Of a stretch of 34,579 nucleotides of DNA, positions 546 through 26,818 are shown piece after piece. Below the pieces are notes generated by a model that worked only from the letters and a program-made list of their open reading frames with translations, did no database searches and was not told the origin of the DNA. Each line of letters begins with the position of its first letter. Positions within the stretch are counted from its first letter, which is position 1. The translations under genes were made by a program, and so were the position numbers. The DNA comes from Treponema sp. (GTDB taxonomy: Bacteria; Spirochaetota; Spirochaetia; Treponematales; Breznakiellaceae): contig JAITUR010000073.1 in the NCBI GenBank assembly GCA_031286205.1, positions 1 through 34,579 on the forward strand, given 5' to 3'.

Positions 546-581
546 TTTTCCCATAATACATTTTTAGGATACTATTGTCAA
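546..581 (-). promoter_or_regulatory. rpe promoter, near-leaderless
   Basis: On the minus strand TTGACA (576-581), a 17-base spacer and TATTAT (553-558) are followed by 7 bases and the ATG at 545. The predicted +1 is about 546, so the leader is about one base. The -35 box shares five bases with the -35 box of the divergent TPR promoter, because TTGTCAA reads as a -35 on both strands. Confidence 0.75.
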
Positions 582-602
582 ACCCCAAAAAAATGCTATA
601 CT
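575..602 (+). promoter_or_regulatory. Promoter of the TPR-greA-VWA operon
   Basis: TTGTCA (575-580), a 16-base spacer and TATACT (597-602), preceded by an extended -10 TGC. The predicted +1 near 609 leaves a leader of about five bases before the ATG at 614. No Shine-Dalgarno sequence is present. Confidence 0.7.
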
Positions 603-613
603 AAACTGATACA

Positions 614-1555
614 ATGGAAAAAAGCCAGGCTGTAGGGCTGTTAAAAAACGCCTATGAAAAACTAAGGGCTGCTGACGCGGAAACGGCCTATGTTCTTTTG
701 GAACAGGCTTTAGACCATGACTTTGAAAACGAAGAAATCAAGCATGCGCTTAAATGCGTCCATTGGTGGCTTGATAATTCCAGGAGGCTGGACGACACAA
801 TAAAAAATAACTATGAAAAAGGGGGATATTTAATATCGCTTTTTAAGAAGTATTATATTTTTTTAGGACAGCTTGATGACATCTATGATCAATGTCAGTA
901 CTCTGTCCGTTATTTTGTTTACTCAAGAGCGCTTTCTTATTTCGAAAAGCTTTTGAATATTCAAGCCAATCAGCAGGATCCCGGGCTTTTGCTTTTGGTT
1001 GGCCGTTGTTACAAGGGACTTGGCAATTATGACGAAGCCTTAAGTTTTCTTGAACAGGCTTTATATCTAAAAAGAGATAATGCCGAAGTCCTTGCCGAAG
1101 TTGCGGATGTTAACGCGCTTTTAGCGGAAACAAAAACCGCAAAAACATTGTTCAGGGAAGCATTTTTCCTTGATCCATCGATTATAGAAATAAAATCTTT
1201 GGAGTCGGCACTTATTATTAACCTTCGTGACGAAGTAGAAAAACTTGGTTACAAAGACGAAGAGTTAAACGCCTGGATACCTGTTTACGGGTATTTAATG
1301 GGAGTTTTTTCCGTAAAGCGGGCATTAAAACAAATGGAGGCAGGAAGGCTTAAACAATCAATTTTTGCTTTGGAGGCTGAGTATGAAGCAAATCCGTCCA
1401 GGCGGGCAATTCTTAAACCACGGCTTCTGAATCATTATTTTTGGCTTATTGATCATTATGAAAATTCCGGCGAGGATCCGCAGTTAATAGAGGAAACCTT
1501 GCTTAAAATAAAAGTTACAGATTCGGAAATACACAAGATGTATTCCGGAAATTAA
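614..1555 (+). CDS. Tetratricopeptide-repeat protein, function unknown
   Basis: A 313-residue, probably cytoplasmic protein with no signal peptide or membrane segment. Residues about 95-190 carry TPR-type helical hairpins, for example the segment LLLVGRCYKGLGNYDEALS with the usual small/aromatic spacing, followed by a second unit ending in LDPS. Such repeats mediate protein-protein contacts; partner and role cannot be read from sequence. It is the first gene of a + strand set: greA follows after 30 bases and the VWA gene 12 bases after that. This order suggests a function linked to the GreA fusion, which also has a helical repeat-like N-terminus. The start lies about five bases after the predicted transcription start, with no ribosome-binding site. 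Confidence 0.85.
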   Translation: MEKSQAVGLLKNAYEKLRAADAETAYVLLEQALDHDFENEEIKHALKCVHWWLDNSRRLDDTIKNNYEKGGYLISLFKKYYIFLGQLDDIYDQCQYSVRYFVYSRALSYFEKLLNIQANQQDPGLLLLVGRCYKGLGNYDEALSFLEQALYLKRDNAEVLAEVADVNALLAETKTAKTLFREAFFLDPSIIEIKSLESALIINLRDEVEKLGYKDEELNAWIPVYGYLMGVFSVKRALKQMEAGRLKQSIFALEAEYEANPSRRAILKPRLLNHYFWLIDHYENSGEDPQLIEETLLKIKVTDSEIHKMYSGN

Positions 1556-1585
1556 AATAAGTTTGAAGGATGGGAGTATATATTT

Positions 1586-4282
1586 ATGGATCATGCACTG
1601 TTAAAAAATTTAAACGAAACTTTAAACGAGGAAAAGTGGACTCGTGCTACCCTTAGCAATTATTCTACCAGTCAATTTAAAGAACTGGATGATATTCTTA
1701 AAGCAGCACGCGCTGAAAAAATTATCGACGAACTAAAAAAGAACTGCGACGAACATTTATCGCATACCAGGAACAGCATTATTGCCCTTTATTTATCCGG
1801 CATGATTGCTCTTTCCCGCCAAATAATTGACGATGCCGCAATTGTAAATTTAGTATCGATATTTTTGGATAATCATAAATGGGGCATTGTAAAATATCTT
1901 TGCGAAAGAATTCTGGATCATGGCGAATCTAAGTTCGCGCTCCGCACTTTGGTTGACTGTTATAAAAACGATAACGAAGAAGAAAAAACATTCGAAGTAC
2001 TGGAAAGACTTGTAAAAGTTGATTTTGAAGAAGCAGAAATAACAAAATCGCTTGCCGAACATTACGAAAAACAGGGCAACAAGGAAAAAGCAATTGATTT
2101 TTACAAAAAATCCATGCACCGCTATATTAATAAATCCAATTTTTCCAATGTAAAAGAAATTTGGGAAAAACTCCTTGTTATCAATGTAGAAGATATAGAT
2201 TTCTTTTTGCATATTCAGAAGAAGATAGCAAAAACCATAAGCGAGGATAAGGCCGTTATATTGCTTAACGAACTTTATGTAAAATACAAAAATTTAGATA
2301 CCGATATTGCAATAAACATATTAAAAATAGCCCTTGAATACGACGGCAAAGATATGCAATGCCGCAGGGAAATTATTGACTGCTACAGAAAAAAATACGC
2401 GTCTCATTCTCAACTGGAAGAATATATCAGAATATCCAACCTGTCGCAGAATTACCGCGATGTTCATCAGGCAATTGCGGGCTTCGAAAAGCACATAGCG
2501 TTTGACAAAGGTAATTATGTGTATCACAGAACATGGGGTGTTGGGCGTATTGCAAAAATAAAGGGCGATGATATTCAAATTGATTTTTCCAAAAAACGCG
2601 GACATTCAATGTCGCTTAAAATGGCTGTTGGAGCCCTTGCTACACTTTCCAAAGATCATATATGGGTATTAAAAGCAACCAAGAAAAAAGAAGAACTGCG
2701 TTTAATGATAAAGGACAAAGAAGAAAATATTATTTGGGCGCTTAAAACAGTTATAAAAAGTTTTGGAAATGCCTGTGATATGAAAAGAATAAAAGCCGAG
2801 CTCTCCCCTGCTCTTTTATCTTCCGGCGAATGGGCTACATGGAATTCCAAGGCACGCGATATTTTAAAATCCAACCCGGATTTTGGATTAAGCGCGGATA
2901 ACAGCGATGTATTTACGGTAAGAGACAGGCCAATAGAAGTAGCGGAAAAAATCTACAATGAATTTACCGCACAGAAAAACTTTTACGATAAAGTATCCAG
3001 TATTAGAGATTATGTTAACAATAAAAAAGCCGGCGCGGATTCCGAATACTTTTTGGAAATGCTGTCTTATTTTACATCGATACTGCGAAGCAAGCAAAAT
3101 CCGGAACAGATGGCGGCTTCGTATCTTTTAATTAATGAAATAGCATCGAACAAAAATTATTCTCATTTTAAATCCGAGCTAAAAATAAGTTTCGAAGAAG
3201 TGTTTTCTAATATTAAAAATGTAACGACACTTTTTAAGAACTTAAAAGATTTACGGCTAAAAACAGAGTTCCTTTCCAACATAAAGCAGTATATAAACGA
3301 ATGGCCGGATATTTATACCAAACTGTTCCCCTACTCCCAACTGCCCATTATTACGGAAAAACTGGAAGAAGGCGGCTATAAAGACAAACTTTCCGCAATG
3401 TGTATAGACTGCTTCGAAAATCTCCGCGAAAACCGCGAAGCTGCCGTCTGGCTTTATAAAAATTCCAGAGAAACAGACTGGTTTAAGGCGGCAAAACTTG
3501 GCACGGAAAAACTTCTTATAAGCCTTGTCCGTGTTTTGGATATTACTTACAGAGATATAGAAAACAACAAAGACACAGTAGAAAACAGAAAAATTAATAA
3601 GCTGGTGCACAATATTCTTTTTAAAGACGGCGAAGTTAAATCGTTTTTAGATAGAGCGAACGAAGACGCAATTATTAGGATCTTTACTTTTATAAATGAT
3701 GTTAAAGACCTTGACCCGCAGGATAAACTTAATCTGCGTTCCAAGATATTGGATAAACATCCCAACTTTAAGTTCTTCGATGAAGCAGAAACAAAGGTTT
3801 CCAGAGGTCTTATTGTTACTCATGCAATGTTCGATGTAAAAAAGAAACAGCTTGCGCATATCATGGAAGTAGAAGTCCCCGCAAACTCCAAGGATATAGA
3901 ATATGCCTTGTCTTTGGGAGATTTACGGGAAAATGCGGAATACAAAGCTGCAAAAGAGAAGCAAGATCAGCTTAACTCGCAGGTTGCAAAACTTAAAGGA
4001 GAAATCGAAAGAGCCCAAATTTTCGATCCAAAGTCGATCGGTACTATTACAAAGGCAGGCTTTGGAACAAAAGTTACCATGCGCAACGAAACCGCCGGAA
4101 AACAGGAAGAATTTACTATATTGGGCCCCTGGGAATCTGACCCCAATAATAATATTATTTCCTATCTTTCTCCGATTGGAAGTGCTATACTTAATAAGAC
4201 GGAAGGAGAAAAGTTCGATTTTGTAATGGATAACGGAGAAAAGGTTTCATATCTTGTAGAAAAGATACAGGCAGCAATATAG
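1586..4282 (+). CDS. greA: GreA transcription elongation factor with long helical N-terminal extension
   Basis: An 898-residue fusion. Residues about 745-898 are a full GreA: an N-terminal coiled coil with the conserved core GDLRENAEYKAAKE (near 776-789), then an FKBP-like C-terminal domain. GreA inserts its coil into the RNA polymerase secondary channel and stimulates transcript cleavage in backtracked complexes. Residues 1-300 are TPR-like alpha helices. Residues about 308-352 (VYHRTWGVGRIAKIKGDDI and following) look like a small beta-barrel of CarD/Tudor type; that part is inference. Residues 355-740 are helical and unassigned. Free-standing GreA is about 158 residues, so this is more than five times normal, as I recall for other treponemes. 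A GGGAG Shine-Dalgarno site lies about 10 bases before the ATG. Confidence 0.93.
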   Translation: MDHALLKNLNETLNEEKWTRATLSNYSTSQFKELDDILKAARAEKIIDELKKNCDEHLSHTRNSIIALYLSGMIALSRQIIDDAAIVNLVSIFLDNHKWGIVKYLCERILDHGESKFALRTLVDCYKNDNEEEKTFEVLERLVKVDFEEAEITKSLAEHYEKQGNKEKAIDFYKKSMHRYINKSNFSNVKEIWEKLLVINVEDIDFFLHIQKKIAKTISEDKAVILLNELYVKYKNLDTDIAINILKIALEYDGKDMQCRREIIDCYRKKYASHSQLEEYIRISNLSQNYRDVHQAIAGFEKHIAFDKGNYVYHRTWGVGRIAKIKGDDIQIDFSKKRGHSMSLKMAVGALATLSKDHIWVLKATKKKEELRLMIKDKEENIIWALKTVIKSFGNACDMKRIKAELSPALLSSGEWATWNSKARDILKSNPDFGLSADNSDVFTVRDRPIEVAEKIYNEFTAQKNFYDKVSSIRDYVNNKKAGADSEYFLEMLSYFTSILRSKQNPEQMAASYLLINEIASNKNYSHFKSELKISFEEVFSNIKNVTTLFKNLKDLRLKTEFLSNIKQYINEWPDIYTKLFPYSQLPIITEKLEEGGYKDKLSAMCIDCFENLRENREAAVWLYKNSRETDWFKAAKLGTEKLLISLVRVLDITYRDIENNKDTVENRKINKLVHNILFKDGEVKSFLDRANEDAIIRIFTFINDVKDLDPQDKLNLRSKILDKHPNFKFFDEAETKVSRGLIVTHAMFDVKKKQLAHIMEVEVPANSKDIEYALSLGDLRENAEYKAAKEKQDQLNSQVAKLKGEIERAQIFDPKSIGTITKAGFGTKVTMRNETAGKQEEFTILGPWESDPNNNIISYLSPIGSAILNKTEGEKFDFVMDNGEKVSYLVEKIQAAI

Positions 4283-4294
4283 AAAGAGGTAAAT

Positions 4295-5812
4295 ATGAAT
4301 AGGATTGGATTGGCGTTAATATTAATAATTTTCGCGGTATTTATTGTCCACGGGCAAAATCAGAGTTCCAGCCCAATAGACCTTGTTTTGCTTTTAGATA
4401 CTTCGACAGGCATGAGTTCGTCCTACGATAATGTAAATAATTACATTACCGGCGGTTTTCTTACAGAATTTCTTCGTGTCGGCGATACCTTTCATTTAAT
4501 TTCATTTTCACAAGCTCCAAAATTGGATGTAGCGCGCAGAATTTCTGCCACAGGAGATGTAGAAACAATTATTGGAAGAATGATGCTTCAGTACCCGATA
4601 GAAAGAGGAAGCAATATACAGGCAGCGCTTACATATGTCGAACAATATGTTTCCGCTCTTCCTTCCCGCCCCAAAAAAATAGTTCTTGTAAGTACAGGAA
4701 CCAATGATACCGCAAATTTAGTAGCGGCTTCCAGTCAGAGGCTTTCTTCCAGAAATACCACCATTGATTTTGTCAGGGTTACACCGGGACAGCCCATTAC
4801 AAATGTTCCAAGCTCCGGCCGCGCACAGCCGCAAAGACAGGGAGCAGCCGATATTGCAAGGCAGCCGGGAACAGCCGATACTTTACGCGGCGACCAGGGT
4901 TTTACTGCCGGTCAGGGCGTAGCAGACAGTACTACTCCGGGTGCAGGTGTAACAGGTGACAGTTGGAGTACTGCGGACGGCAGAATTACTGACGGCATTG
5001 CAGATGGCAGAACTACTACAGACGGCTGGTCTTTAGATGGAACTGGAACTACAGAGGACAGGATTGCTGCAGATGGAATTGCAGTTGATACTGAAGGTAC
5101 TGAAACAGATAGCTGGTCGACAACATTGCCTGCTCCGGATTCATTATCTGAAAAATCAGGCGTGTTTAATTTTTCGTCTTCTTTACCGTGGATTATTGGT
5201 CTTATTCTTCTTTTACTTTTAATTATTGGTATTATTATTTTATTGTCTTCCCGCCGTCTTGGTTCCAGCCCCAACCGAGTTATGGCGCAAGTTGCTTCCG
5301 GCGGTCATGACGGTACAAGAGAAAGAGTCGATCACAGCAAAGATTTGGCAAGATACGCGGCGGGTCAAAGCAGAAGAACAACTCCTTATTCTGACAGACC
5401 GTACAAACCGGATACCGCAGCTCCTGTTGTAATTAATCCGCATGGTCCGCTTCTTCTTAATTTATTTGTAGAAGATCAAAATACGCGTATTGGCAAGCGT
5501 AATATACATTCGTTAAAATCAGGTTATAACCTTTCTGTCGGCGGCGGCAAGGCCGACGGTTTCCTTATTTTCCTTGTTCCAATTCCGCCGCATATTGGAG
5601 AGCTTCGCAGAAGCGGCAGTCAGCTTTCGTTTATTCCAAAAAAGGCAAGGTACTTCCCGGATCTTGGATCCAACGAGCTTAGGGATTGTCTGAACAAAAC
5701 CATCAGAATTATTTCGGATAAAAACTACGAGCTTAGATTCAGGTTTGAAATGTATGAAGACCCACTAGTTACGCTAAACAGGATGTTAAATTCAATTAAA
5801 GTTCCGGGATAA
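4295..5812 (+). CDS. Membrane-anchored von Willebrand factor A domain protein
   Basis: A 505-residue envelope protein. A signal peptide (1-20, ending VHG) is followed by a VWA domain (about 28-165). A linker of about 130 residues, rich in Thr, Ser, Gly and Asp, leads to a transmembrane helix (297-318) and a C-terminal domain of about 185 residues. Predicted topology puts the VWA domain in the periplasm and the C-terminus in the cytoplasm. The metal site is degenerate: DTSTG (35-39) replaces DxSxS, the threonine position is Ser106, and the usual late aspartate is Thr134 (STGTND). The C-terminal part, with LKSGYNLSVGGG and beta-rich spacing, is faintly like an FHA domain; I hold that weakly. 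AGAGG lies close before the ATG and the gene follows greA by 12 bases. Confidence 0.85.
   Translation: MNRIGLALILIIFAVFIVHGQNQSSSPIDLVLLLDTSTGMSSSYDNVNNYITGGFLTEFLRVGDTFHLISFSQAPKLDVARRISATGDVETIIGRMMLQYPIERGSNIQAALTYVEQYVSALPSRPKKIVLVSTGTNDTANLVAASSQRLSSRNTTIDFVRVTPGQPITNVPSSGRAQPQRQGAADIARQPGTADTLRGDQGFTAGQGVADSTTPGAGVTGDSWSTADGRITDGIADGRTTTDGWSLDGTGTTEDRIAADGIAVDTEGTETDSWSTTLPAPDSLSEKSGVFNFSSSLPWIIGLILLLLLIIGIIILLSSRRLGSSPNRVMAQVASGGHDGTRERVDHSKDLARYAAGQSRRTTPYSDRPYKPDTAAPVVINPHGPLLLNLFVEDQNTRIGKRNIHSLKSGYNLSVGGGKADGFLIFLVPIPPHIGELRRSGSQLSFIPKKARYFPDLGSNELRDCLNKTIRIISDKNYELRFRFEMYEDPLVTLNRMLNSIKVPG
4976..5098 (+). repeat. DG-rich degenerate repeat inside the VWA linker
   Basis: Codons for residues about 228-268 encode closely spaced Asp-Gly pairs (ADG, TDG, ADG, TDG, LDG, ADG) separated by 3-9 residues rich in Thr, Ile and Arg. 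At DNA level gac/gat-ggc/gga recurs with variable spacing. It looks like a decayed tandem array within a flexible linker rather than a folded domain. Confidence 0.6.
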
Positions 5813-5819
5813 TTCTTCG

Positions 5820-5825
5820 GATAAT
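5820..5825 (+). promoter_or_regulatory. Possible internal promoter -10 box before pyrC
   Basis: GATAAT lies 8 bases before the ATG at 5834, which would give a leader of about two bases. The -35 is weak (TTAAAG at 5796-5801, 18-base spacer). Because pyrC follows the VWA gene by only 21 bases, it could also be co-transcribed. No Shine-Dalgarno site is visible, which favours a leaderless start. Confidence 0.4.
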
Positions 5826-5833
5826 TTAAATTT

Positions 5834-7120
5834 ATGGCGTACGATCTTATACTTCGTAATGGAACCCTTGTAACCTCTAAAGAAACCTATAAAAGCGATA
5901 TAGGAGTTAAAAACGGTAAAATTGCCTTTATTGGCAAGATTCAAAGCGACACAAATAATAATAGTACAAATATTGATATGTCCGGTTTATATATTTTGCC
6001 CGGTATTATCGACGCTCATGTGCATTTTCGCGAGCCGGGGTTAACTCATAAAGAAGATTTTATAACAGGCAGCATGGCAGCAGCAGCCGGCGGAATTACT
6101 TTTATTGCCGATATGCCGAATACCATACCGCCAACATTTTCTGTAAACGAATTTAATAAAAAATACAATTTAGCACGGGAAAAATCCTGCATAGACTTTG
6201 GACTTTTTGCTTTATTAACCAACGATAATACGGACGAAATTCCCGGGCTTGTAAAAGCAGGCGCTTTTGGATTTAAGGTATTTCTTGGTACTTCTACCGG
6301 AAATCTTTTGCCTCCTTCGCCGGCAGTATTAACCGAACAGCTTCGTATATGTACTTCTTTTGGCAAAAGAACCGGTTTCCACGCGGAAACAAGCGAAATA
6401 AACGAAGCCGATACGGAAAAATTAAAAAAATTAGAACACAGTCCGCCCTATGGTAAAATTTTAAACGATGCAAGACCAATACAATCGGAAATTTTGGCTA
6501 TTAAAAAAGCTGTTGATTTTGCCCGTGAAGCAAATGCAATGATTCATATTCACCATGTAACATGCAAAGAAGGTGTCGAAATTATATCAAACGCAAAAAA
6601 AGAAGGTATAAATGTAACCGCGGAAACCTGCCCCCATTATCTTTTTTTAAACGCGGAAAACAGCTCGTATAAATGTTATCCGCCAATAAGGCGCGAAGAA
6701 CACCGCGCCGCTCTATGGCAGGCGGTAAAACACGGCGATATCGATATGATTGCGACAGACCATGCTCCTCATACACTGGAAGAAAAATCGCTTTCGTTAT
6801 GGGAAGCGCCCGCAGGCCTTGCAGGAGTCGAAACACTTGTTAACTTAATGTTAAACGAGGTTAACAAAGGAACTATAACCCTGAATGATTTTGTCCGTCT
6901 ATGCAGCGAACAGCCCGCTAAAATTTGGGGAATAAAAAATAAGGGAGAACTGTCAGTTGCCTCGGATGCGGATTTTACCATTGTAAATATGAATAAAAAA
7001 GTAAAAATAAATTATTTAGAAATGAAATCTAAAAGTAAAACCACGCCATATAATGGCTGGGAATTAAAGGGCTCTTCTGTTGCGACAATTGTCCGCGGAA
7101 ATTTTATATCTTATAATTAA
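5834..7120 (+). CDS. pyrC: Dihydroorotase
   Basis: Catalyses the reversible cyclisation of N-carbamoyl-L-aspartate to dihydroorotate, the third step of pyrimidine synthesis, in the cytoplasm. The 428-residue length is normal. Metal-binding residues of the amidohydrolase barrel are visible: DAHVHFREPG (His62, His64), GFKVFLG (Lys148, the likely carbamylated bridge), His183, HIHHVT (His240/241) and ATDHAPHTLEEK (Asp309). The last motif and PYNGWELKG near the C-terminus are typical of dihydroorotase. The Lys148 context resembles hydantoinases and allantoinases, so a related cyclic amidohydrolase activity is the main alternative. The gene ends tail-to-tail with comF, overlapping it by four bases (TTAA). 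Confidence 0.88.
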   Translation: MAYDLILRNGTLVTSKETYKSDIGVKNGKIAFIGKIQSDTNNNSTNIDMSGLYILPGIIDAHVHFREPGLTHKEDFITGSMAAAAGGITFIADMPNTIPPTFSVNEFNKKYNLAREKSCIDFGLFALLTNDNTDEIPGLVKAGAFGFKVFLGTSTGNLLPPSPAVLTEQLRICTSFGKRTGFHAETSEINEADTEKLKKLEHSPPYGKILNDARPIQSEILAIKKAVDFAREANAMIHIHHVTCKEGVEIISNAKKEGINVTAETCPHYLFLNAENSSYKCYPPIRREEHRAALWQAVKHGDIDMIATDHAPHTLEEKSLSLWEAPAGLAGVETLVNLMLNEVNKGTITLNDFVRLCSEQPAKIWGIKNKGELSVASDADFTIVNMNKKVKINYLEMKSKSKTTPYNGWELKGSSVATIVRGNFISYN

Positions 7121-7824
7121 TCGTAAAAAAGACATATTCCATATACTTTTTCCGCGCCATTTTGCTTAAGGACAGAGGCGCATACTTCCATTGTAGATCC
7201 GGTAGTAAAAACATCATCTATAACCAGGGCGGTTTTTGGCGCTTGTATATTTTTATTGCAATAAATACGGCCTTTTAGATTTTCTATTCGTTCTTCCCGG
7301 TTTAGTTCTTTTTGAATACTGGATTTTTTTCGTTTTAAGCAGCGGCAAACAGACTTTGCCGGTTTTTTTAATTTTTTAACCAGATAGTCTACTTGATCCC
7401 AGCCGGTTTCCTTTTTTTTACCCGGTCTTGGCGGAACAGGAACTATGATTGCGTCATTTAACTCTGCTTTATTAATAATGTCCAGTATTTTTTCCGCAAA
7501 ATATTCTGCTAACGGCAGTTTTTTTAAAAATTTATATTTAGTCAATAATTCTTTGTATTTACCTGTGTATGGAAAAAGAGCCCAAATACGGTCGTAAGAT
7601 ACTTCGCTTTTTCTGCACGAAAGACAGGTATTAATTTCCGATACAAGAGGTTTTCCGCATTTATTGCATCTTTCTCCTTCTATGTAGACCAACGATTCTT
7701 TACAATTCATACAAAGACCATACTTAATTTCGTCTGCATTTAATAAATTATCATTGCACAATGCACAGTCAGACGGAAATAAATAATTTTTAATTAACAA
7801 TAAAATATTTTGTCTCATATGCAT
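7117..7824 (-). CDS. comF: ComF-family phosphoribosyltransferase-like protein
   Basis: A 235-residue protein with an N-terminal zinc-binding region of four CxxC pairs (Cys20/23, 38/41, 53/56, 67/70) and a type I phosphoribosyltransferase domain whose PRPP loop reads ALVIDDVFTTGST (199-211). ComF proteins are linked to DNA uptake in competent bacteria, but many non-competent species have one, so the exact role here is unknown. It is the last gene of the tamB operon. Its ATG at 7824 overlaps the mutS stop by one base (TAATG), which implies translational coupling; a second in-frame ATG at 7818 is an alternative start. No Shine-Dalgarno site is visible for either. Confidence 0.85.
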   Translation of the reverse strand: MHMRQNILLLIKNYLFPSDCALCNDNLLNADEIKYGLCMNCKESLVYIEGERCNKCGKPLVSEINTCLSCRKSEVSYDRIWALFPYTGKYKELLTKYKFLKKLPLAEYFAEKILDIINKAELNDAIIVPVPPRPGKKKETGWDQVDYLVKKLKKPAKSVCRCLKRKKSSIQKELNREERIENLKGRIYCNKNIQAPKTALVIDDVFTTGSTMEVCASVLKQNGAEKVYGICLFYD

Positions 7825-10376: not shown

Positions 10377-10383
10377 TTTTTAT

Positions 10384-10914: not shown

Positions 10915-10923
10915 AAACCACTC

Positions 10924-13488: not shown

Positions 13489-13525
13489 TTAAACTCCATA
13501 AATTGTAAAATAACTAACTGCCAAA

Positions 13526-16500: not shown

Positions 16501-18007
16501 CCAGCTGTCCCGGTTTACGGTTAATAACGGCATCGACATAAGCAAAACTATTATCTTTGGATGCAACTTGTCCTAAAATTACAATATCTTTTTCCGCCGA
16601 ATATAAATTAACCGAAAGTTCGTCCATAACAATACTGCCCATTAAAAAATCATTTGCAGATATGCGGATATTGTCATCGTTGCTTGTAATTTCCAAATTT
16701 GCGTTAATGCTGTCTTTGCCTGTAAAACTGAAATTATTAAAATTAATATTACCCTGCGGCTTTACAGGATTAAGCTGCATATTTCCGGATGCGTTTATAT
16801 TGCCCTGAAAGAATCCGGCTTTTACGGTAGCTTCCGAAGCATTAATGTAAAATTCATTTAAAAAAAGATTATCGCTGCCGCCGTATGCACGGACAGAAAA
16901 ACCGTCATTGTCATCTCCGCCTTTATAATCAACGGAATAATTTAACACGCCGTTTTCGTCTCTTGAAAATTTAAAATTACCCGACACAGCAATATCCAAA
17001 AGATGGCTTGCATTAGATAAATAATCATAAAAATTTATGCTTGATCCTATAACATAATCACTCATGTTAAGATATGCTTTTACAGTACCTGTCTCTAAAT
17101 TATGCTGAAAAGAATAATCGATATCCTGTTCGCCAAGTATTTGCTCTATCGATAACGTTCTATCTTTATATTTTAATAAAATGTTAACGGGCTTTAAGGA
17201 AAAAATATTTACAAGATTGGTTTGCTGCAAAGATACATTCCTGAAAAATACAATAGGGCTTCTTGTATTTCTTTGTTCGGAACAAACAATAGACGAAAGA
17301 ACTATGTCCGCGTTTGCCGTATTTAAATTTGATGCACTTATGCTTTTAATATCGACATTGGTATTAAAAATAATGGATCTGTCGCTAAAGCCGGAGTATC
17401 TTATTTCCGCATCAAAAGAGGAATCGAAAAGAATATCTTCGCGGTCTCCTTTAATGTCGATATTCATGCCGTCGATTTTATAAACAAAGCTGCCGTCAAC
17501 CAAAAGCAAAGAACAGTTTCGCATAACATAGTTAACACTTTTGGGCAAATACTCCGCAATTTGCTGAACTATAATTTTATCGCTTGACTGTTTTTCGTTC
17601 TGATTAAGATTAAATCCTGTAAAAATATCCATATCTCTTTGAAGATCCATTCTTAAAATGGGGCGATCTATATTTATTGTGTGAATGGCGGATTTGTTTC
17701 CTGTAATTAATTTTGGCAGCGAAAAGCGAATACTTGCACGCGATACGGTAAAAAAGGATCTACCCTCTTTATAAAATCTTAAATTTCTAATTTCGAAAGA
17801 GCCAAAAAACGCGGGACGGATGGAAGAGTATCTAATTTCCAATCCTGCGGCATCTTCCATGTTTTTTATAATATCATTGCGGATATTGCTCATTGCGCTG
17901 CCCAAGGCATACTGAATGGGCTGCAGTAAAATGGCGGAAATGCCTATTAAACCGCAAAAAACGAGAATTTTTAAGTAAATTGAGCGGGGCGATGCTTTAA
18001 ATGACAT
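13526..18007 (-). CDS. tamB: TamB-like inner-membrane/periplasmic lipid transfer protein
   Basis: A 1,493-residue AsmA/TamB-superfamily protein. One N-terminal membrane helix (about 12-34) anchors a long periplasmic stretch of beta strands with alternating hydrophobic residues, as expected for the hydrophobic groove that bridges the two membranes and moves phospholipid. The C-terminal 350 residues form the TamB (formerly DUF490) domain, with SLLGQN and a final aromatic residue (SWSKSF). It is the first gene of the operon with bamA and skp, matching its functional link with Omp85 proteins. AGAAGG abuts the ATG directly, too close to act as a Shine-Dalgarno site. A -10 box 9 bases upstream suggests a leader of about three bases. 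Confidence 0.93.
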   Translation of the reverse strand: MSFKASPRSIYLKILVFCGLIGISAILLQPIQYALGSAMSNIRNDIIKNMEDAAGLEIRYSSIRPAFFGSFEIRNLRFYKEGRSFFTVSRASIRFSLPKLITGNKSAIHTINIDRPILRMDLQRDMDIFTGFNLNQNEKQSSDKIIVQQIAEYLPKSVNYVMRNCSLLLVDGSFVYKIDGMNIDIKGDREDILFDSSFDAEIRYSGFSDRSIIFNTNVDIKSISASNLNTANADIVLSSIVCSEQRNTRSPIVFFRNVSLQQTNLVNIFSLKPVNILLKYKDRTLSIEQILGEQDIDYSFQHNLETGTVKAYLNMSDYVIGSSINFYDYLSNASHLLDIAVSGNFKFSRDENGVLNYSVDYKGGDDNDGFSVRAYGGSDNLFLNEFYINASEATVKAGFFQGNINASGNMQLNPVKPQGNINFNNFSFTGKDSINANLEITSNDDNIRISANDFLMGSIVMDELSVNLYSAEKDIVILGQVASKDNSFAYVDAVINRKPGQLDAMLNLDSFSFFTLTGMFRPFVNFISLPDFVLNQLNNNKLDTEIYFSSNFKNMIYNAPNIIIKNDTVLGKLSLSGTDRQFNLSHGVFYLDNDELLISASSMFYNSMDIRFTVNASYQDTSWNVDGQLLDRTTLIIRDPNGLHVYGNVSNTGALSGYVEGINYPIPVDSSLLYLNFYTTLRFNNYEFWSVDVAFFEISDINSREGDVNFRITGSADQDGASFREILFNDSLGLLFGNADFSWDPDFSYLQFYINMTDGMDKGESYFFDGMLKNKTFRLNTEISNMHINRLFKGRNTMLASAEADITWDSIDSFNADINISSFYTNLNKGDIQASGGIYFTNNELAVHNLKIDYQEINAVIPIIQINRTESFAEFQANINGFVLDKIIDIQAKFNADFKKTDSWINITNALNLFDGQLVFDNFHYGDILYKDTEFVFSGNNGALSVSGGIDEMLRLEMDNLGNFYLGLSAPLPIRGSIAGTLSKDLMLDAHCSYFFIDMKSLWTSVTAAENEIGFSGGYIIGKVDIRGPVLNPEFFGVARGTSFNMQVPSYVANDIRPVPFNITAEGYEMTFGPVFTVCGLGGGTASGWFRFEFWAPRNIGIDINIPAETPIPYAIDIVGVIAEGDASGTLSLVTQIGDDNLIEIKGDIVVNNTEMGYIMIDQSGDEQEEPEMHSIVDFKITTGSTVEFFWPDKTTPLIKANPEMGTVISITADTLAQQFSIVSDINIRSGELNYLDRNFYIRQGTLVLRENENDFNPRITARAEIRDRVDSGPVIISLIVENQPLLSFEPRFEASPSLTQLEIYSLLGQNYNIQDSNNPEVAQRFLLNSTTDIVGQVIARYDFLGQSMILRQIEKQVRDFLNLDLLSFRTRIVQNFIVEGAVEQGFFTAGTEPVTGAGASPVDAARMGNYLDNTTVSIGKYIGQDMFIQGTLTMKYDENSVILRGIALEPNIDIGIEWRTPFVNIRWDIFPSNPQNWFITDNSITLSWSKSF

Positions 18008-18009
18008 CC

Positions 18010-18022
18010 TTCTATAATTATA
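18010..18022 (-). promoter_or_regulatory. tamB operon promoter, near-leaderless
   Basis: On the minus strand a perfect TATAAT (18017-18022) with an extended -10 TGT lies 9 bases before the ATG at 18007. Predicted +1 is about 18010, giving a three-base leader. The -35 is poor (TGTCTT at 17-base spacing), so the extended -10 probably compensates. Confidence 0.65.
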
Positions 18023-18030
18023 ACATTTAT

Positions 18031-18059
18031 TTGCCTAAAAAGACACAATATGGTATAAC
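18031..18059 (+). promoter_or_regulatory. tmk promoter, leaderless
   Basis: TTGCCT (18031-18036), a 17-base spacer and TATAAC (18054-18059) with extended -10 TGG. Six bases separate the -10 from the ATG, which puts +1 on the A of the start codon at 18066. It is divergent from the tamB promoter within a 58-base gap. Confidence 0.75.
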
Positions 18060-18065
18060 TAATCG

Positions 18066-18692
18066 ATGGATATTATACAAAATTTCGTAGTCTTCGAGGG
18101 AGCAGATGGCAGCGGGACTACGACTCAGCTTAATATGCTTGCGGATCGCTTTACAAAAACATCTAAAACCGCGTTTTTTCCAACTTTTGAGCCTACCGGC
18201 GGGGCTATAGGCAAGTTAATTCGTTCCGCTCTTAAAAACGAGGCGGTTTTTGACCCAAAAGCCCTCTGCTATCTTTTTGCCGCAGACCGTGTGGAGCACC
18301 TTTTTAGTAATAACGGTATTTTAGAACGAACCAATAGGGGGGAATTTGTAGTCAGCGACAGATATTCAATTTCCTCTCTGGTTTATCAGGGTATTGAGTG
18401 CGGCGATGAACTCCCTGCCGAGCTAAACAAGGATTTTCCCGCCCCCGAAATTACCATTTTTTTTGATCTTAAACCGGACATTGCCAAAGAAAGAATGAAA
18501 GCAAGAACTTCTTTAGAAATTTACGAATACCTGGAGTTTCAAAACAAAGTCTATGCCAAATACCTGGCTGTTCTGGAAAAGTATGCCGCTTTGGGCGCAA
18601 GGGTGGAAATTATAGACGCGTCAGAACCCGCAGAAATTGTGCATGACAAGGTATGGAGCATTTTGTCTCAAATGCCGATATTTAAAATATAG
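18066..18692 (+). CDS. tmk: Thymidylate kinase with an altered P-loop
   Basis: Phosphorylates dTMP to dTDP for DNA synthesis. The 208-residue protein has family motifs FEPTGG (41-46), FAADRVEHL (71-79), SDRYSISSLVYQG (97-109) and a LID region near ARTSLEIYEYLEF. The P-loop is FEGADGSGTTTQ (10-21): the usual Walker A lysine after GSG is Thr18 (codon ACT). Reaching threonine ACT from either lysine codon takes two base changes, so a single sequencing error is unlikely. Either phosphate binding is supported by another residue or activity differs; the rest of the active site looks intact. Its stop overlaps the next gene's GTG by one base. Confidence 0.92.
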   Translation: MDIIQNFVVFEGADGSGTTTQLNMLADRFTKTSKTAFFPTFEPTGGAIGKLIRSALKNEAVFDPKALCYLFAADRVEHLFSNNGILERTNRGEFVVSDRYSISSLVYQGIECGDELPAELNKDFPAPEITIFFDLKPDIAKERMKARTSLEIYEYLEFQNKVYAKYLAVLEKYAALGARVEIIDASEPAEIVHDKVWSILSQMPIFKI

Positions 18693-19300: not shown

Positions 19301-19314
19301 TTGTAATAATTATA

Positions 19315-19323
19315 TGTTATACT
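19315..19323 (+). promoter_or_regulatory. ligA promoter -10 region, leaderless
   Basis: TATACT (19318-19323) with extended -10 TGT (19315-19317) lies six bases before the ATG at 19330, so +1 falls on the A of the start codon. No good -35 is seen at 16-18 bases (TATTAG at 17). No Shine-Dalgarno site is present. Confidence 0.65.
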
Positions 19324-19329
19324 TTACTT

Positions 19330-21282
19330 ATGGACAGAATTGAGGAACTGGAAAAATTAATTCAAAAATACCAAACCTCTTATTATAATGGCGAAGCGGA
19401 AATTTCTGATGATCAATTTGATCTTCTTTGGGATGAGTTAAAATCTCTTTCGCCAAACAGCGCTATTCTAAAAAAGGTTGGCGCAGATAATACCGACGGC
19501 TTCCCAAAAGCAAAGCATATAATTCCAATGGGCTCCCAGGATAAAGCCGCCAACCCGCAGGAATTTATTGCATGGGCAAAAAAACAGGGGTTAAGCAAAT
19601 TTATTGTTCAATTTAAATTGGACGGCGCATCCTTGGAATTACAATACGATAACGGCAAATTAACAAAGGCGGTTACAAGGGGAGATGGAATTATAGGCGA
19701 TGATATAACGGCAAACGCGCGGCGAATGAAGGGTGTTGTTCAAAATTTAGATATTCCGTTTACAGGCGGCATTCGGGGAGAAGTAATAATGACCCATGCC
19801 GTTCATAAAAGCAAATACAGCGACAAGGCAAATTGCCGCAACTGCGCAAACGGACTTATGCGCCGAAAGGACGGCGAAGGGTGCGAAGATTTAACAGTTA
19901 TGGTTTATGATGCTTCCGCCTTAAATAACGACAATTATTTTGAAGATGAAATAAAAAAAATAGAATGGTTAAAAAAACGCAAATTCGAAACAAGCGAAAC
20001 TAAAGTTTTTAATACCGAACAACAAGTTATTGAATACCGCGAACAAATCAGCGCACAGCGCGGCAAACTTCCATTTGATATAGACGGGCTTGTGGTAAAA
20101 GATATAGAAACCGATATGTCGGATCTTCGTAAAGCCCGGCCGGAAAAACAAATTGCTTTTAAGTTCGAGCTGGAAACCGCCTTCAGTATCTTGCGCGAAA
20201 TTGAATGGAGCGAATCGGGGGCTACCTTTACTCCTATTGGGATAATCGATCCGGTGCGCCTTGCGGGAACTACAGTTAAACGGGCAAACCTGAATAACCC
20301 GGATATGATTAGGTCGATGGGATTAAAAATCGGCTCCAGAGTTTCTGTGGTAAAACGCGGGGAGATTATCCCAAAAATAGAAGGCCTTGCACAGCAAAGC
20401 CACCTTGCGCCGGAGACTGCGGATACAGAAATGCAGGAAATTATTTTTCCTAAAACCTGCGGTGTTTGTAATACAGATCTTATTGATGCAGGTACGCGCC
20501 TTTATTGCCCAAATAGCCAATGCCCAAAAAGACTTTTACACAGACTGGAAAAATGGGTAAGCGTATTGGATATTCGCGAATTGGGAGTAAAGCTGCTGCG
20601 CCAATTATATGAAAAAGAAAGAGTCCGCCATATTCATGAATTTTACAATTTAACAAAAGAAGAACTTTCTGAATATGACAGAATGGGCGAAATTTCCGCC
20701 GCAAAAGTTATCCGGCATATTCAAACAAAACGGGAGTTGTCTCTTGCCGCCTTTGTTGCAGGTTTTAATCTGGAAGGAATTGCCGAAACAACTATGGAAA
20801 AAGCCGCTCTTTCCGGGTTTGACACTCTGGAACTAATCCGCGGCGCGACAGTAGCGGAGTTAGCTGCTATTCACGGCTTTGGCGAAATTACCGCTTCTGT
20901 CATTGTAGACGGGCTTAAAGAATGTGCCGCGCAAATGGATGCTGTACTAAAAACAGGCGTAATTTCCATTGCGCCGCCGCCGCCCAAGGAATCTTTACCC
21001 CTGCGCGGTTTGTCTTTCTGTTTTACCGGCGAATTAAAATCCATAAAACGCGGACAGGCGGAAGAAAAAATAAAAACCCTTGGCGCTCAGGCAAAATCTT
21101 CGGTGGTAAAGGGGCTGTCTTATCTTGTTACAAATGACCCTGAATCCGGATCTTCGAAAAATAAAAAAGCCCTGGAGCTTGGCGTAAAAATAATAGGAGA
21201 AGATGAATTTTTGACAATTATTTCGACTAATGAAATTTCCGACGAAAAATCCAAAAAACCGCTCCAGGGGGAGTTATTTTAA
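19330..21282 (+). CDS. ligA: NAD-dependent DNA ligase
   Basis: Seals 3'-OH/5'-phosphate nicks using NAD+ in replication and repair. The 650-residue length is near the usual 670. The domain order is complete: Ia domain (ISDDQFDLLWDEL, 25-37), adenylation domain with the nucleophile in FKLDGAS (Lys96), TRGDG and GEVIM motifs, OB fold, a Cys4 zinc finger (Cys377, 380, 393, 398), helix-hairpin-helix repeats (about 430-535) and a BRCT domain (about 570-645). Some motifs differ from the commonest LigA forms, for example KLDGAS for KxDGLA. The start is set by the -10 box six bases upstream. The protein ends at 21282 and purL has its own promoter. Confidence 0.96.
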   Translation: MDRIEELEKLIQKYQTSYYNGEAEISDDQFDLLWDELKSLSPNSAILKKVGADNTDGFPKAKHIIPMGSQDKAANPQEFIAWAKKQGLSKFIVQFKLDGASLELQYDNGKLTKAVTRGDGIIGDDITANARRMKGVVQNLDIPFTGGIRGEVIMTHAVHKSKYSDKANCRNCANGLMRRKDGEGCEDLTVMVYDASALNNDNYFEDEIKKIEWLKKRKFETSETKVFNTEQQVIEYREQISAQRGKLPFDIDGLVVKDIETDMSDLRKARPEKQIAFKFELETAFSILREIEWSESGATFTPIGIIDPVRLAGTTVKRANLNNPDMIRSMGLKIGSRVSVVKRGEIIPKIEGLAQQSHLAPETADTEMQEIIFPKTCGVCNTDLIDAGTRLYCPNSQCPKRLLHRLEKWVSVLDIRELGVKLLRQLYEKERVRHIHEFYNLTKEELSEYDRMGEISAAKVIRHIQTKRELSLAAFVAGFNLEGIAETTMEKAALSGFDTLELIRGATVAELAAIHGFGEITASVIVDGLKECAAQMDAVLKTGVISIAPPPPKESLPLRGLSFCFTGELKSIKRGQAEEKIKTLGAQAKSSVVKGLSYLVTNDPESGSSKNKKALELGVKIIGEDEFLTIISTNEISDEKSKKPLQGELF

Positions 21283-21315
21283 TTGCGCGGGTTTCTGGTT
21301 TTTTATTTATCAATT

Positions 21316-21324
21316 TGATACAAT
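21316..21324 (+). promoter_or_regulatory. purL promoter -10 region, leaderless
   Basis: TACAAT (21319-21324) with extended -10 TGA (21316-21318) lies five bases before the ATG at 21330. Predicted +1 coincides with the start codon within one base. The -35 is weak and there is no Shine-Dalgarno site. Confidence 0.6.
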
Positions 21325-21329
21325 AATCC

Positions 21330-24300
21330 ATGAGCGTTTACGAAATCTATGTAGAAAAAAAACCGGAGTATGCCGGAGAAGCCGCATCCATTGCCAATGA
21401 CATAAGGCTTGGCTTGCAGCTTGATAATTTGGACAAGGTAAGAATTATTAACCGGTACTTTGCCGAGGGACTTTCAAAAGAGGATTTTGACGGCGTTAAG
21501 TCTGCCGTTTTTTCGGAGCCCCCTGTCGATATAATTTACGATAAGCTGCCTGACATTGACAATGCCCGGGTATTTGCCGTTGAACTCCTTCCCGGTCAGT
21601 TTGATCAACGCGCCGATTCCTGCGCCCAGTGCATCTCGCTTGCCACAGGGAAAGAACAGCCGGTTATCCGTTATGCAAAAATCTATGCCCTGTATGGAAA
21701 TATTAATGATAATCAATACGAACGCATTAAGGCGTGGATTATAAATCCTGTAGAAAGCCGTCTTGTGGATTTAAAAAAGCCGGATACCTTAAAACTGGAA
21801 TACAATGAGCCGCAAAGTGTAGAAGTCCTTGACGGCTTTATCAATTTAAATGATGAACAACTGAATGAATTACGGCAGAACCTGAAACTGGCAATGGATT
21901 TTGACGACATTAAATTTTGTCAAAATTATTTTAAGGATCAGGAAAAACGCGATCCTAGTATTACAGAAATTCGCGTATTGGACACTTATTGGTCTGATCA
22001 TTGCCGGCATACAACTTTTTTAACCGAGCTAACCGATGTCAAAATCGAAGATGAAGTCATAAATAAAAGTTACAATAATTATCTTGAACTGCGCGCTTCT
22101 TTGGGCAGAAGCGATAAACCTATTACATTGATGGATATCGCGACAATCGGCGTTAGGGCGCTTAAACAAAAAGAACTGCTTGCCGACTTGGACGAATCCG
22201 AAGAAATAAACGCCTGCTCCGTAAAAATCAAGGTTGATATAAACGGCAAGGACGAAGACTGGCTGCTTATGTTTAAAAACGAAACTCATAATCATCCTAC
22301 GGAAATTGAACCCTTTGGAGGCGCGGCAACCTGTCTTGGCGGTGCAATCCGCGACCCGCTCTCCGGACGGGCTTTTGTATATCAGGCTATGCGTATAACG
22401 GGCGCGGGCGATCCATTGCAAGCCGCTGCCCTGCCCGGTAAACTGCCTCAACAAAAAATTTGCCGGACAGCGGCAGAAGGATACAGCTCTTACGGGAATC
22501 AAATTGGGGTTGCAGCAGGACATATAAGCGAGATTTACCATCCGGGGTATGTTGCAAAACGCATGGAACTGGGCGCTGTAATTGGAGCCGCTCCCGCGAT
22601 CAATGTAGTGCGGGAAACGCCCGTTGCAGGCGACATTGTAATATTAGCCGGCGGAAAAACAGGCCGTGACGGAATAGGCGGAGCTACGGGTTCTTCCAAA
22701 TCTCATGATACCGACTCTCTTGTTACCTGCGGAGCCGATGTGCAAAAAGGAAATCCGCCGGAAGAACGAAAAATTCAAAGGCTTTTCCGCAATCCGCAGG
22801 CGGCAAAATTAATTAAAAGGTGCAATGATTTTGGCGCGGGAGGTGTTTCTGTCTCTGTCGGCGAGCTTGCGGACGGGTTATCAATATCATTGGATAAAGT
22901 TCCGGTAAAATACGGCGGGCTTGACGGTACGGAGCTTGCAATTTCGGAAAGCCAGGAACGAATGTCTGTTGTAGTATCAAGATCCGATGCGGAAAAGTTT
23001 ATAGCTTTAGCGGACGAAGAAAACCTGGAAGCCGTAATAATTGCCGAAGTTACGGAAGAACCAAGGCTTGTTATGAATTGGAAAGGCAAAGCTGTTGTAA
23101 ATCTTTGCAGAACTTTTTTAAACAGCAATGGCGCAAAGAAAAAAGCAAAAGCGCAAATACGAACCGCAAAAGACGCAAAACCGCAGTGCTGCAGTAAGAC
23201 AGACAAAGATGAATTTTTTAATCTTATTGGCAGTTTGAATATTTGTTCGCAAAAAGGTTTGGTTGACAGATTTGACTCCAGCGCCGGGGCTGCCACAGTT
23301 TTGGCTCCCTTTGGCGGCAAGTATCAGCTGACACCGGCGCAGAGCATGGCGGCAAAAATCCCCGTCTTAAACGGGGATACAACTACGGTGTCCCTTATGT
23401 CCTGGGGTTTTGATCCGGTGTTATCAAGTGTTAGTCCTTATCATGGCGCAATTTACGCGGTTGTCCACTCTTTGGCAAAGATTATTGCCGCAGGAGGAAG
23501 CAGGAAGAAGTGCTGGTTATCTTTTCAGGAATACTTTGAAAGACTACGAGACGATCCTGCCCGCTGGGGTAAACCGCTGGCTGCCCTGCTCGGCGCTTTA
23601 GATGCCCAACTGGGTCTGGAAATAGCGGCTATCGGCGGCAAGGATTCGATGTCCGGCAGTTTTGAAAATATCGATGTGCCGCCTACACTTGTTTCTTTCG
23701 CTGTTTCTGTAACAAAGATAGATAATATAATTACGCCGGAGTTTAAGGAAAGCGGGAGTTTTGTTTATCTTATTTCACACAGAGCACACAAAGAAACAGA
23801 GAACACAGAGGAATATTTTATTAGTTTATGTAATTTTTTTGATAATGTGGAAAAATTGATCGAAGAAAAAATAATAATTTCCGCATGGGCGGCAGGAAGC
23901 GGCGGAGCCGCGGAGGCAATACCAAAAATGTGTTTTGGAAACAGATTGGGGTTTGCCGCGGAAAAAGAACTTTGTAAATGCAGCGGCTTTTGCGGTTTTA
24001 TTGTGGAAGCAAAAAATGAATTAAACTTAAAACAAGGTATGGAAGCGGAATTATTGGGGCGGACAATCAATCAATATGTACTTAAAACACCGTCGTTTGA
24101 AAGTTTTATGTTTAAGGTGCAATCGGCATGGGAAAATACTCTGGCTCCTGTGTATCCGTATTTAAATAACCAAAAAGCTTCGGACAAGGTAATATCTTCC
24201 CCTGCTTCCTCGAAGATGGCTGTGTCTCCTGCAAAAAACAAAAAATCCCAGCCGCTTTTTATTATTCCGGTTTTCCCCGAAACAAACGGCGAATACGATA

Positions 24301-25049: not shown

Positions 25050-26685
25050 AATGCCGTGTCCCTGTAAAGACCATCGCTATCCCGTATTTGTCGCACGCCT
25101 CTATCGATAGTTTATCGTTCATTGAACCGCCGGGTTGTATTATGGATTTAATGCCCGCTTTTGCCGCAGCTTCGACAATATCCGCAAACGGAAAAAAAGC
25201 ATCCGAAGCAAGAACCCGCGCGGGAGTATCGCATTTCCAGGGGCTGGAGCCCGTATCAAATGATGATTCTTTTGCGGCTTTAATTACCGCGGCGCTTCGT
25301 TCCAGCGATTGCATGGTCGGCCAAATACGGTTTACCTGTCCGCCTCCAATGCCGGTTGCCGACTGTTCTTTTACTATCATTATGGCGTTTGATTTTACAA
25401 AAGTTACAGCCCTTAATCCAAAAAGCATATCGGCTATGTCGGACGATTCAGGCTGAGCCTTGGTAACAACTTCCCACTTTTCCAAAAGGACTTTGTCGCT
25501 TTGCTGAACAAGCATTCCGCCGTCAACGGCAATGTATTCATGTGTTTCTACAGGAGCTTTTTTTAGTTTGATAATTCTAAGGTTCTTTTTCTTTTTAAGT
25601 ATTTCCAGGGCATCGCTATCAAAGTCCGGAGCGGCAACAATTTCCAAAAAAAGCTCGCCTAGTTTAGCGGCTGTTTTTGCATCAACCTTTGTATTACAGG
25701 CAATTATGCCGCCAAAAATTGATACAGGGTCGCAGGCAAAAACCTTGTTATATGCTTCCAACAGTGTATTTCCCAATGCAATTCCGCAGGGGGTATTGTG
25801 TTTTACCGCTACACAAGAAATTTTTGCGCTATTCTTGCCTTCGTTAACCTCTTTAATTAACTGGTTAACAAGATTTTCTCCTGTTGGAGGGGTATTATCG
25901 GCTTCCAGACCAAAGGCGCAGGCTGCTTTCCATGCCAGATCGAGGTCTTTGATATTATTGTAGCCCAACTCTTTGCCGTGAAGCTGTTCCATGCTTCCAA
26001 GAACGCCGGGGCGATCCGTATTTAGATACAAGGCGGCAGATTGATGGGCATTCTCCCCATAGCGTAAACCCTGCCCCATTTGCATTGATACAGGTAAATA
26101 TTTTGGATATTCATCATTAAGCAAGTACCGCGAAATTGCGGCATCATAGGCGCTTGTAAGGTTAAAAACCTTGCCCGCAAGTTTTCGTTTAAAATCAAGC
26201 GGCACATTATCTGCTTTAAGTCCTTCGATTGTCTGGGCATAATCCGCAGGGTCTGTAAGGACAATTACATCGCGGCAATTTTTTGCGGCGGATCGCAGCA
26301 TACCGGGTCCGCCAATATCAATAAATTCGATGGTTTCTTCCGGGGAGAGTCCTGCCTGCACCTTTTCGAAAAACGGATATAAATTAACACAGACAAGATC
26401 GATTGTTCCAAGGTTTTGTTCTTTTAATGTATCGATATGGCTTTGGACATCGCGGCGGGCAAGTATACCGGCATGGATTGCAGGGTGCAAGGTTTTAACA
26501 CGGCCGTCCAGACATTCAGGGAAGCCGGTTACCGAGGAAACATCGGTTACGGGAATGTTGTTTTCCTGCAGATATTTGGAAGTTCCGCCTGTGGAAAGAA
26601 TTTCCCAGCCTGCGCCGTGCAAATAAGACGCAAGGTCAAGAATACCGTCTTTGTAAAATACGCTGATAAGAGCTCGTTTGTTCAT
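25039..26685 (-). CDS. purH: Bifunctional AICAR formyltransferase/IMP cyclohydrolase
   Basis: The last two steps of purine synthesis to IMP. The 548-residue protein has an N-terminal MGS-like cyclohydrolase domain (about 1-145, with STGGTS and GRVKTLHP) and the C-terminal formyltransferase domain with LRYGENAHQ (207-215) and the catalytic VKHNTPCG (Lys295, His296), ending in GTRHFKH. All usual landmarks are present. It faces purL tail-to-tail with an 11-base overlap of the reading frames, so the two purine genes may affect each other's 3' ends. The ATG at 26685 has no Shine-Dalgarno site; its promoter puts +1 exactly on the start codon. Confidence 0.97.
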   Translation of the reverse strand: MNKRALISVFYKDGILDLASYLHGAGWEILSTGGTSKYLQENNIPVTDVSSVTGFPECLDGRVKTLHPAIHAGILARRDVQSHIDTLKEQNLGTIDLVCVNLYPFFEKVQAGLSPEETIEFIDIGGPGMLRSAAKNCRDVIVLTDPADYAQTIEGLKADNVPLDFKRKLAGKVFNLTSAYDAAISRYLLNDEYPKYLPVSMQMGQGLRYGENAHQSAALYLNTDRPGVLGSMEQLHGKELGYNNIKDLDLAWKAACAFGLEADNTPPTGENLVNQLIKEVNEGKNSAKISCVAVKHNTPCGIALGNTLLEAYNKVFACDPVSIFGGIIACNTKVDAKTAAKLGELFLEIVAAPDFDSDALEILKKKKNLRIIKLKKAPVETHEYIAVDGGMLVQQSDKVLLEKWEVVTKAQPESSDIADMLFGLRAVTFVKSNAIMIVKEQSATGIGGGQVNRIWPTMQSLERSAAVIKAAKESSFDTGSSPWKCDTPARVLASDAFFPFADIVEAAAKAGIKSIIQPGGSMNDKLSIEACDKYGIAMVFTGTRHFKH

Positions 26686-26691
26686 GATCTT

Positions 26692-26720
26692 ATTGTGAAT
26701 TGTTGCATGGTTTTAGTCAA
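26692..26720 (-). promoter_or_regulatory. purH promoter, leaderless
   Basis: On the minus strand TTGACT (26715-26720), a 17-base spacer and CACAAT (26692-26697), then six bases to the ATG. Predicted +1 is base 26685, the A of the start codon. The -35 matches consensus at five of six bases, the -10 at four of six. Confidence 0.6.
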
Positions 26721-26765: not shown

Positions 26766-26794
26766 TTGACATTGAATAATTAATGATATATTAT
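26766..26794 (+). promoter_or_regulatory. GH10 gene promoter
   Basis: Consensus TTGACA (26766-26771), a 17-base spacer and TATTAT (26789-26794). Predicted +1 near 26801 lies downstream of the in-frame ATG at 26783, which therefore cannot be the start. The ATG at 26819, preceded by GGGGGA (26809-26814), is used instead. Confidence 0.8.
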
Positions 26795-26818
26795 CATAAA
26801 AAACAATTGGGGGATTCT

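Follow-up and report, generated by a model that had tools for sequence, protein, structure and literature searches.

Leaderless genes have been described in spirochaetes before. In the TA-led genes of Zheng 2011 (PMC3160421), about 10 bases separate a -10-like box from the start codon, a Shine-Dalgarno (SD) site is lacking, and there is a link to the first genes of operons, Spirochaetes included; leaderless genes were predicted there for 6 of 18 genomes of Spirochaetes, on average 3.9% (1.8, 6.9) of genes, and at around 20% in Actinobacteria. For Leptospira interrogans, PMC5243855 reports about 440 leaderless mRNAs (leaders of less than 10 bases, by RNA-seq) and quotes 1174 leaderless mRNAs for Deinococcus deserti. 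Leptospira is a spirochaete of a distant lineage and its leaderless mRNAs were measured as RNA, whereas the genes considered here are predicted from sequence alone; in Borrelia burgdorferi, a nearer spirochaete, leaderless mRNAs are stated to be frequent (PMC10618245). According to a figure quoted in PMC9581028, 21.6% of bacterial species are predicted to use leaderless initiation, for which other papers describe a 70S route (PMC4512697) and an IF2 route (PMC10783764).

The stretch of DNA analysed here (the window) comprises positions 1 to 34,579 of contig JAITUR010000073.1, from the assembly GCA_031286205.1 of a Treponema sp. A first-pass annotation had proposed that the first genes of operons in it are leaderless, with a -10-like box abutting the start codon in place of an SD site, and knew of no such description for treponemes. 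The first proposal stands as a strong tendency (30% of 183 first genes in a sample of the genome) and not as a rule. On the second point, leaderless genes are described in spirochaetes as a group, as set out above; for Treponema by name, literature searches on Treponema and spirochaetes (mostly covering less than the full text) found no description of them, and in the passages retrieved two Treponema-titled papers use the word 'leaderless' in another sense. Promoters that abut start codons are real as a strong tendency, and the mode of expression predicted from them is of a known kind.

Promoters and ribosome-binding sites in the window

Upstream regions of the window genes were compared with 400 dinucleotide shuffles per gene, a -10 box being allowed 4 to 12 bases before the start. 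The following features were located, those of the GH10 gene serving as a leadered contrast case.

543..545, minus strand: start codon of rpe (ribulose-phosphate 3-epimerase, PF00834)
553..558, minus strand: rpe -10 box TATTAT, 7 bases before the ATG
576..581, minus strand: rpe -35 box TTGACA, spacer 17, overlapping the -35 box of the TPR gene on the opposite strand
575..580, plus strand: TPR-gene -35 box TTGTCA, from the two-box scan of the window
597..602, plus strand: TPR-gene -10 box TATACT, 11 bases before the ATG at 614
18017..18022, minus strand: tamB -10 box TATAAT, 9 bases before the ATG at 18007 (P = 0.02)
18031..18036, plus strand: tmk -35 box TTGCCT, from the two-box scan of the window
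18054..18059, plus strand: tmk -10 box TATAAC, 6 bases before the ATG at 18066
19318..19323, plus strand: ligA -10 box TATACT, extended (TGt), 6 bases before the ATG at 19330, no -35 box
21319..21324, plus strand: purL -10 box TACAAT, extended (TGa), 5 bases before the ATG at 21330, no -35 box
26692..26697, minus strand: purH -10 box CACAAT, 6 bases before the ATG at 26685
26715..26720, minus strand: purH -35 box TTGACT, spacer 17
26766..26771, plus strand: GH10 -35 box TTGACA
26789..26794, plus strand: GH10 -10 box TATTAT, spacer 17, 24 bases before the ATG at 26819
26809..26813, plus strand: GH10 SD-like GGGGG, before the start at 26819

An abutting two-box promoter is clear at rpe (TTGACA-N17-TATTAT-N7-ATG) and purH (TTGACT-N17-CACAAT-N6-ATG), each with 0 of 400 shuffles as good, and at tmk (TTGCCT-N17-TATAAC-N6-ATG, P = 0.005). 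The -10 boxes proposed for ligA and purL are good ones and have the TG of an extended -10, but stand without a -35 box, and the two-box test is not significant for either (P = 0.34 for ligA, where the test picked another site; P = 0.11 for purL, which with a same-strand gap of 47 bases is not clearly operon-first). At tamB and the TPR gene the box is likewise in place, and the predicted leader is about 2 to 5 bases rather than none (about 5 bases for the TPR gene, TTGTCA-N16-TATACT-N11-ATG, P = 0.003). In sequence, ligA, purL and tamB look like genes with extended -10 promoters lacking a good -35 box. For pyrC (the amidohydrolase gene at 5834, which follows its neighbour after 21 bases) the proposal was not borne out, as GATAAT stands there alone (P = 0.20).

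Internal and accessory genes had mostly been assigned SD sites or stop/start overlaps. GH10 has a promoter 24 bases upstream and GGGGG before its start; SD cores are present at greA, the gene at 4295 (previously VWA), skp, bamA, mutS and the ABC ATPase gene; and the open reading frame coordinates fit the two overlaps claimed for comF (7824) and for the gene after tmk (18692). The GH5 gene, also credited with an SD site, has no SD core at the start used, and neither does the Fic gene. Pfam supports the identities of rpe, the TPR gene, GreA, the amidohydrolase (previously pyrC), a zinc-ribbon protein (comF), MutS, OmpH/Skp, BamA, thymidylate kinase, the NAD ligase, PurL, PurH, GH10, GH5, the ABC ATPase and the Fic protein; the gene at 4295, the gene at 18692 and the tamB-like gene had no Pfam match at 1e-5 and retain the names of the first-pass annotation. 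The GreA protein (1586-4282) is 898 aa long, with its GreA domains confined to residues 743-895 and no Pfam family match at 1e-5 in the long N-terminal part. A Fic/DOC domain protein of 128 aa (28489-28875) lies in the accessory region between GH10 and GH5.

Start-abutting promoters in genome samples

The genome from which the window comes (2.34 Mb in 126 contigs, 94% complete) was sampled in 40 stretches that, with the window, total 532,588 bases (23% of the genome). A second genome of the same genus (G008) was sampled in 20 stretches and one genome from each of four other families of the order (G018, G019, G021, G023) in 19 or 20, the stretches being picked non-randomly, by contig number or even spacing; E. 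coli K-12 and D. deserti plasmid 3 (250 kb each) served as controls. Genes were called from codon usage alone, and the starts are therefore blind to upstream signals (392 genes in the source genome). Blind starts were correct in 29 of the 37 E. coli genes found (39 annotated), and starts placed with signals in 32 of 36. First genes were those with a divergent neighbour or a same-strand gap of at least 100 bases, and internal genes those with a same-strand gap of at most 30; contig-end genes (26 in the source genome) were excluded. Upstream DNA was scored with a fixed sigma-70 matrix of two boxes (based on E. coli frequencies, not trained here) and a generic SD matrix in a three-class mixture, the class shares being the sole fitted quantity and dinucleotide shuffles of the same DNA the null. 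The external matrix was used because a motif-learning mixture model gave shuffled shares as high as real ones (0.343 and 0.345 for first genes of the source genome) and was dropped. No 16S rRNA match was found in the source assembly, and its anti-SD tail is not readable.

With blind starts, 0.296 of 183 first genes in the source genome were predicted to be leaderless (10 shuffles: mean 0.015, maximum 0.051), compared with 0.033 of 119 internal genes; same-strand gaps of 31-99 bases gave 0.257. When starts were chosen jointly with signals, the share was 0.336 vs 0.021 in shuffles. The operon-first, not internal, placement that characterises TA-led genes was thus found in this sample, in which leaderless starts appear general and mostly limited to first genes, though a minority mode among them. 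With the other genomes included, the signal appears in five families, represented by one or two genomes each: 0.198 of 149 first genes in G008, 0.150 of 116 in G018, 0.138 of 165 in G019, 0.207 of 130 in G023 and 0.067 of 195 in G021. The D. deserti plasmid gave 0.120 of 106 and E. coli 0.003 of 101.

Among all scored genes, leaderless predictions make up 20% of 348 in the source genome, 18.7% of 290 in G008, 5.6-12.0% in the other four families and 7.4% in the D. deserti plasmid; in view of the 1174 leaderless mRNAs of D. deserti, the matrix probably underestimates in GC-rich genomes. The level of about 20% here, and of 5.6-12.0% in the other families, is higher than the 3.9% given for Spirochaetes in PMC3160421, but the methods differ and the figures are not strictly comparable. 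When the upstream DNA was shifted by 40 bases, the fit in the source genome was still 0.10, which we read as promoters of leadered genes. First genes with a single possible start gave 0.024 vs a shuffled mean of 0.108 in the source genome, on nine genes, too small a number to decide; the sets in this test comprised 3 to 55 first genes. Inside the window, the genome scan called bamA (13431) leaderless, probably wrongly, and missed tamB.

The position of the best promoter over threshold was considered separately. It ended 4-9 bases upstream of the start codon for 18% of the 123 first genes without SD in the source genome (3% in shuffles), 14% of 94 in G008 (3%), 17% of 77 in G018 (4%), 15% of 86 in G019 (2%), 30% of 71 in G023 (4%) and 7% of 110 in G021 (2%); the controls gave 13% of 71 (shuffles 2%) for D. 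deserti and 2% of 47 (shuffles 3%) for E. coli. The peak in the source genome is at 6 bases (12 of 123); in the D. deserti plasmid the best promoters are at 6 (3 genes) and 9 (4 genes) bases, as here. The stretch from a -10 box to the transcription start usually measures 6-7 bases, and where a box precedes the A of the ATG by this distance, the usual start site falls on that A. Promoters of SD first genes in the source genome are enriched 16-45 bases upstream and none of 60 lies at 4-9 bases, in agreement with the proposal that an abutting box excludes an SD site. Leaders in this genome tend to form two groups, absent or long enough for an SD site; the gap between the groups is less clear in G008. 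All 53 leaderless first genes of the source genome start with ATG vs 111 of 124 SD first genes, a preference that was not significant at 0.05 in the other genomes.

It could be argued that the boxes are AT-rich translation enhancers of the S1 type, or intergenic AT bias, with longer leaders made from upstream promoters. The TANNNT count suggested in the first-pass annotation fits such a reading, as 45 of 183 first genes (25%) have the motif vs a mean of 20% in upstream control windows, but the count is nearly blind here because the upstream DNA is AT-rich. In the passages of PMC5397173 bearing on the matter, AT bias at -20 to -10 does not necessarily denote leaderless mRNA, and the leaderless/S1 component has a negative mean in 6 Spirochaetes. 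Against this stand the near-zero shares in shuffles, internal genes and E. coli, and the upstream partners of the boxes. Among first genes without SD whose start codon is preceded by TANNNT at 4-9 bases, a hexamer that agrees with TTGACA in at least 4 positions occurs at spacer 17 in 12 of 42 genes of the source genome (mean 2.1 at spacings other than 16-18) and in 45 of 137 across the six treponeme genomes pooled (mean 4.45 at other spacings). Such an excess of -35 boxes 17 bases from start-abutting -10 boxes marks the latter as promoters. The peak is at spacer 17 in five of the six genomes and at 18 in G023 (6 of 22, with 4 at 17); it is clear in treponemes, in contrast to the GC-rich D. deserti (1 of 22 at spacer 17). 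The -35 box is found as a property of the group and not at every gene named in the window (ligA, purL and tamB being the exceptions). In 97 genes called leaderless in the source genome and G008, the box is preceded by TnTGn, the extended -10 element, which was no part of the scan's criteria. At -11 to -8, 0-2% of called leaderless genes have G, partly by construction. Together with the conserved two-box promoter of rpe (below), the -35 spacing largely refutes the enhancer or AT-bias reading, which we consider very unlikely.

Conservation and gene content

One set of relatives comprised 23 loci encoding named relatives of the window's GreA protein (identity 62-80%), 21 of them labelled 'Treponema sp.' bins, whose isolate codes we take to denote termite hosts. 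The leaderless share in this set (0.36-0.51) was rejected as a genome estimate, the same genes being repeated, and its 26% of 92 is omitted from the placement figures above. At rpe, two boxes matching at least 9 of 12 positions, of which the -10 box lies 6-9 bases from the start codon, are present in 14 of the 20 relatives with a placed start, out of 23 loci (200 shuffles: mean 0.95, maximum 4); TTGACA is exact in 12 relatives and an SD core occurs in none of the 20. One miss, L023 (36% identical), is probably a paralogue. Of 29 ligA relatives, 15 have the box at 4-9 bases, where five control windows give 0-5, and 5 have an SD core. The TPR box lies at 10-15 bases in 14 of 23 relatives (controls 0-6) and at 4-9 bases in 5 of 23, within the control range, so that this gene is predicted to have a very short leader as a rule; 5 of the 23 relatives have an SD core. 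For tmk, the SD core is absent in 17 of 18 relatives and the strict box is found in 2 of 18, and for purH an SD core is present in 10 of 20 and the box in 2 of 20, indicating that the state of purH differs between relatives. The tamB N-terminus was not found in 20 short tmk loci, where the neighbouring gene may differ. One ligA relative, L188 (G037), begins with GTG, and TATAAT stands 6 bases ahead of that codon, which makes it a possible leaderless start.

These comparisons bear on a second reading, which accepts the promoters and places the true start codons further downstream, leaving ordinary leaders. Start calls are 78-89% right on E. coli, and 6 of 64 leaderless calls in the source genome moved the start by more than 100 bases. 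At rpe and ligA, homology nevertheless puts the start in the same region, with the box, where found, 5-9 bases before it; in most relatives ligA starts four codons upstream of the window's start, and the box tracks that earlier start. As the peak at 6 bases is also not expected from wrong starts, we regard misplaced starts as a very unlikely explanation. Leaderless first genes throughout, the strict form of the original proposal, are extremely unlikely and are refuted as far as prediction goes: in the window, most of the first genes that have no accessory function conform, but the mixture weights among first genes of the source genome are 0.30 leaderless and 0.46 SD, and SD first genes there have their promoters well upstream.

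The divergent rpe and TPR genes share one palindromic -35 site, TTGTCAA/TTGACAA, read on both strands (575-581 in the window; L011-L033), and TTGTCAA precedes the TPR gene in 17 of 23 relatives. Divergent gaps of less than 100 bases, which would follow from leaderless promoters, number 10 of 51 in the source genome, 7 of 32 in G008, 2 of 29 in E. coli and 1 of 26 in D. deserti, all small numbers.

The first-pass annotation had also linked leaderless starts to core genes and SD sites to accessory genes. The link is suggested but not significant: when the samples from the other four families were compared, 14 of 53 leaderless first genes had a homologue there vs 18 of 124 with SD (P = 0.09; P = 0.08 with G008 added). 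Of ten called leaderless genes scanned against Pfam, two had no match; adenylate kinase, PheT, an RNase II-type enzyme, CheR and a solute-binding protein were among the others. Orthologs in different samples tend to agree in state (10 pairs leaderless in both members, 32 in one and 112 in neither; odds ratio 7, P = 0.0004), with the provisos that the pairs are not independent and that the source genome vs G008 is the sole comparison below 0.05 among 15.

Predicted leaderless initiation in Treponematales

We conclude with considerable confidence that ordinary sigma-70 type promoters abut start codons in this genome and would give leaderless or near-leaderless mRNAs of first genes. The placement of the promoters is read directly from the DNA: these housekeeping promoters, often with an extended -10 element (TGnTATAAT) and a -35 box at 17 bases, are so positioned that the 6-7 bases usually separating the -10 box from the first transcribed base run out at the start codon. 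For the 5' ends and the ribosome route we infer the following. Transcription by RNA polymerase would begin on the A of the AUG or no more than about 5 bases from it, the 5'-terminal AUG of the transcript's first gene may be read by the known leaderless route, by 70S ribosomes or by ribosomes loaded with IF2 and initiator tRNA, and later genes of the transcript would use SD sites or stop/start coupling.

We lean, by no great measure, towards the broader view that leaderless initiation is a major and probably ancestral mode in Treponematales, serving roughly one in three transcription units and one in five genes of the genus (two genomes sampled), on the scale reported for Actinobacteria. Promoter and start codon would be kept in register, with single genes switching among leaderless, near-leaderless and SD-led states within the genus (rpe and ligA often leaderless, the TPR gene with a short leader, purH often SD-led). 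If this is true, gene-start callers that expect SD sites would misplace the starts of a sizeable share of first genes here, and the order would offer a diderm setting outside Actinobacteria and Deinococcus for studying leaderless initiation, in which differences gene by gene among close relatives would allow direct tests of how leaders are gained and lost.
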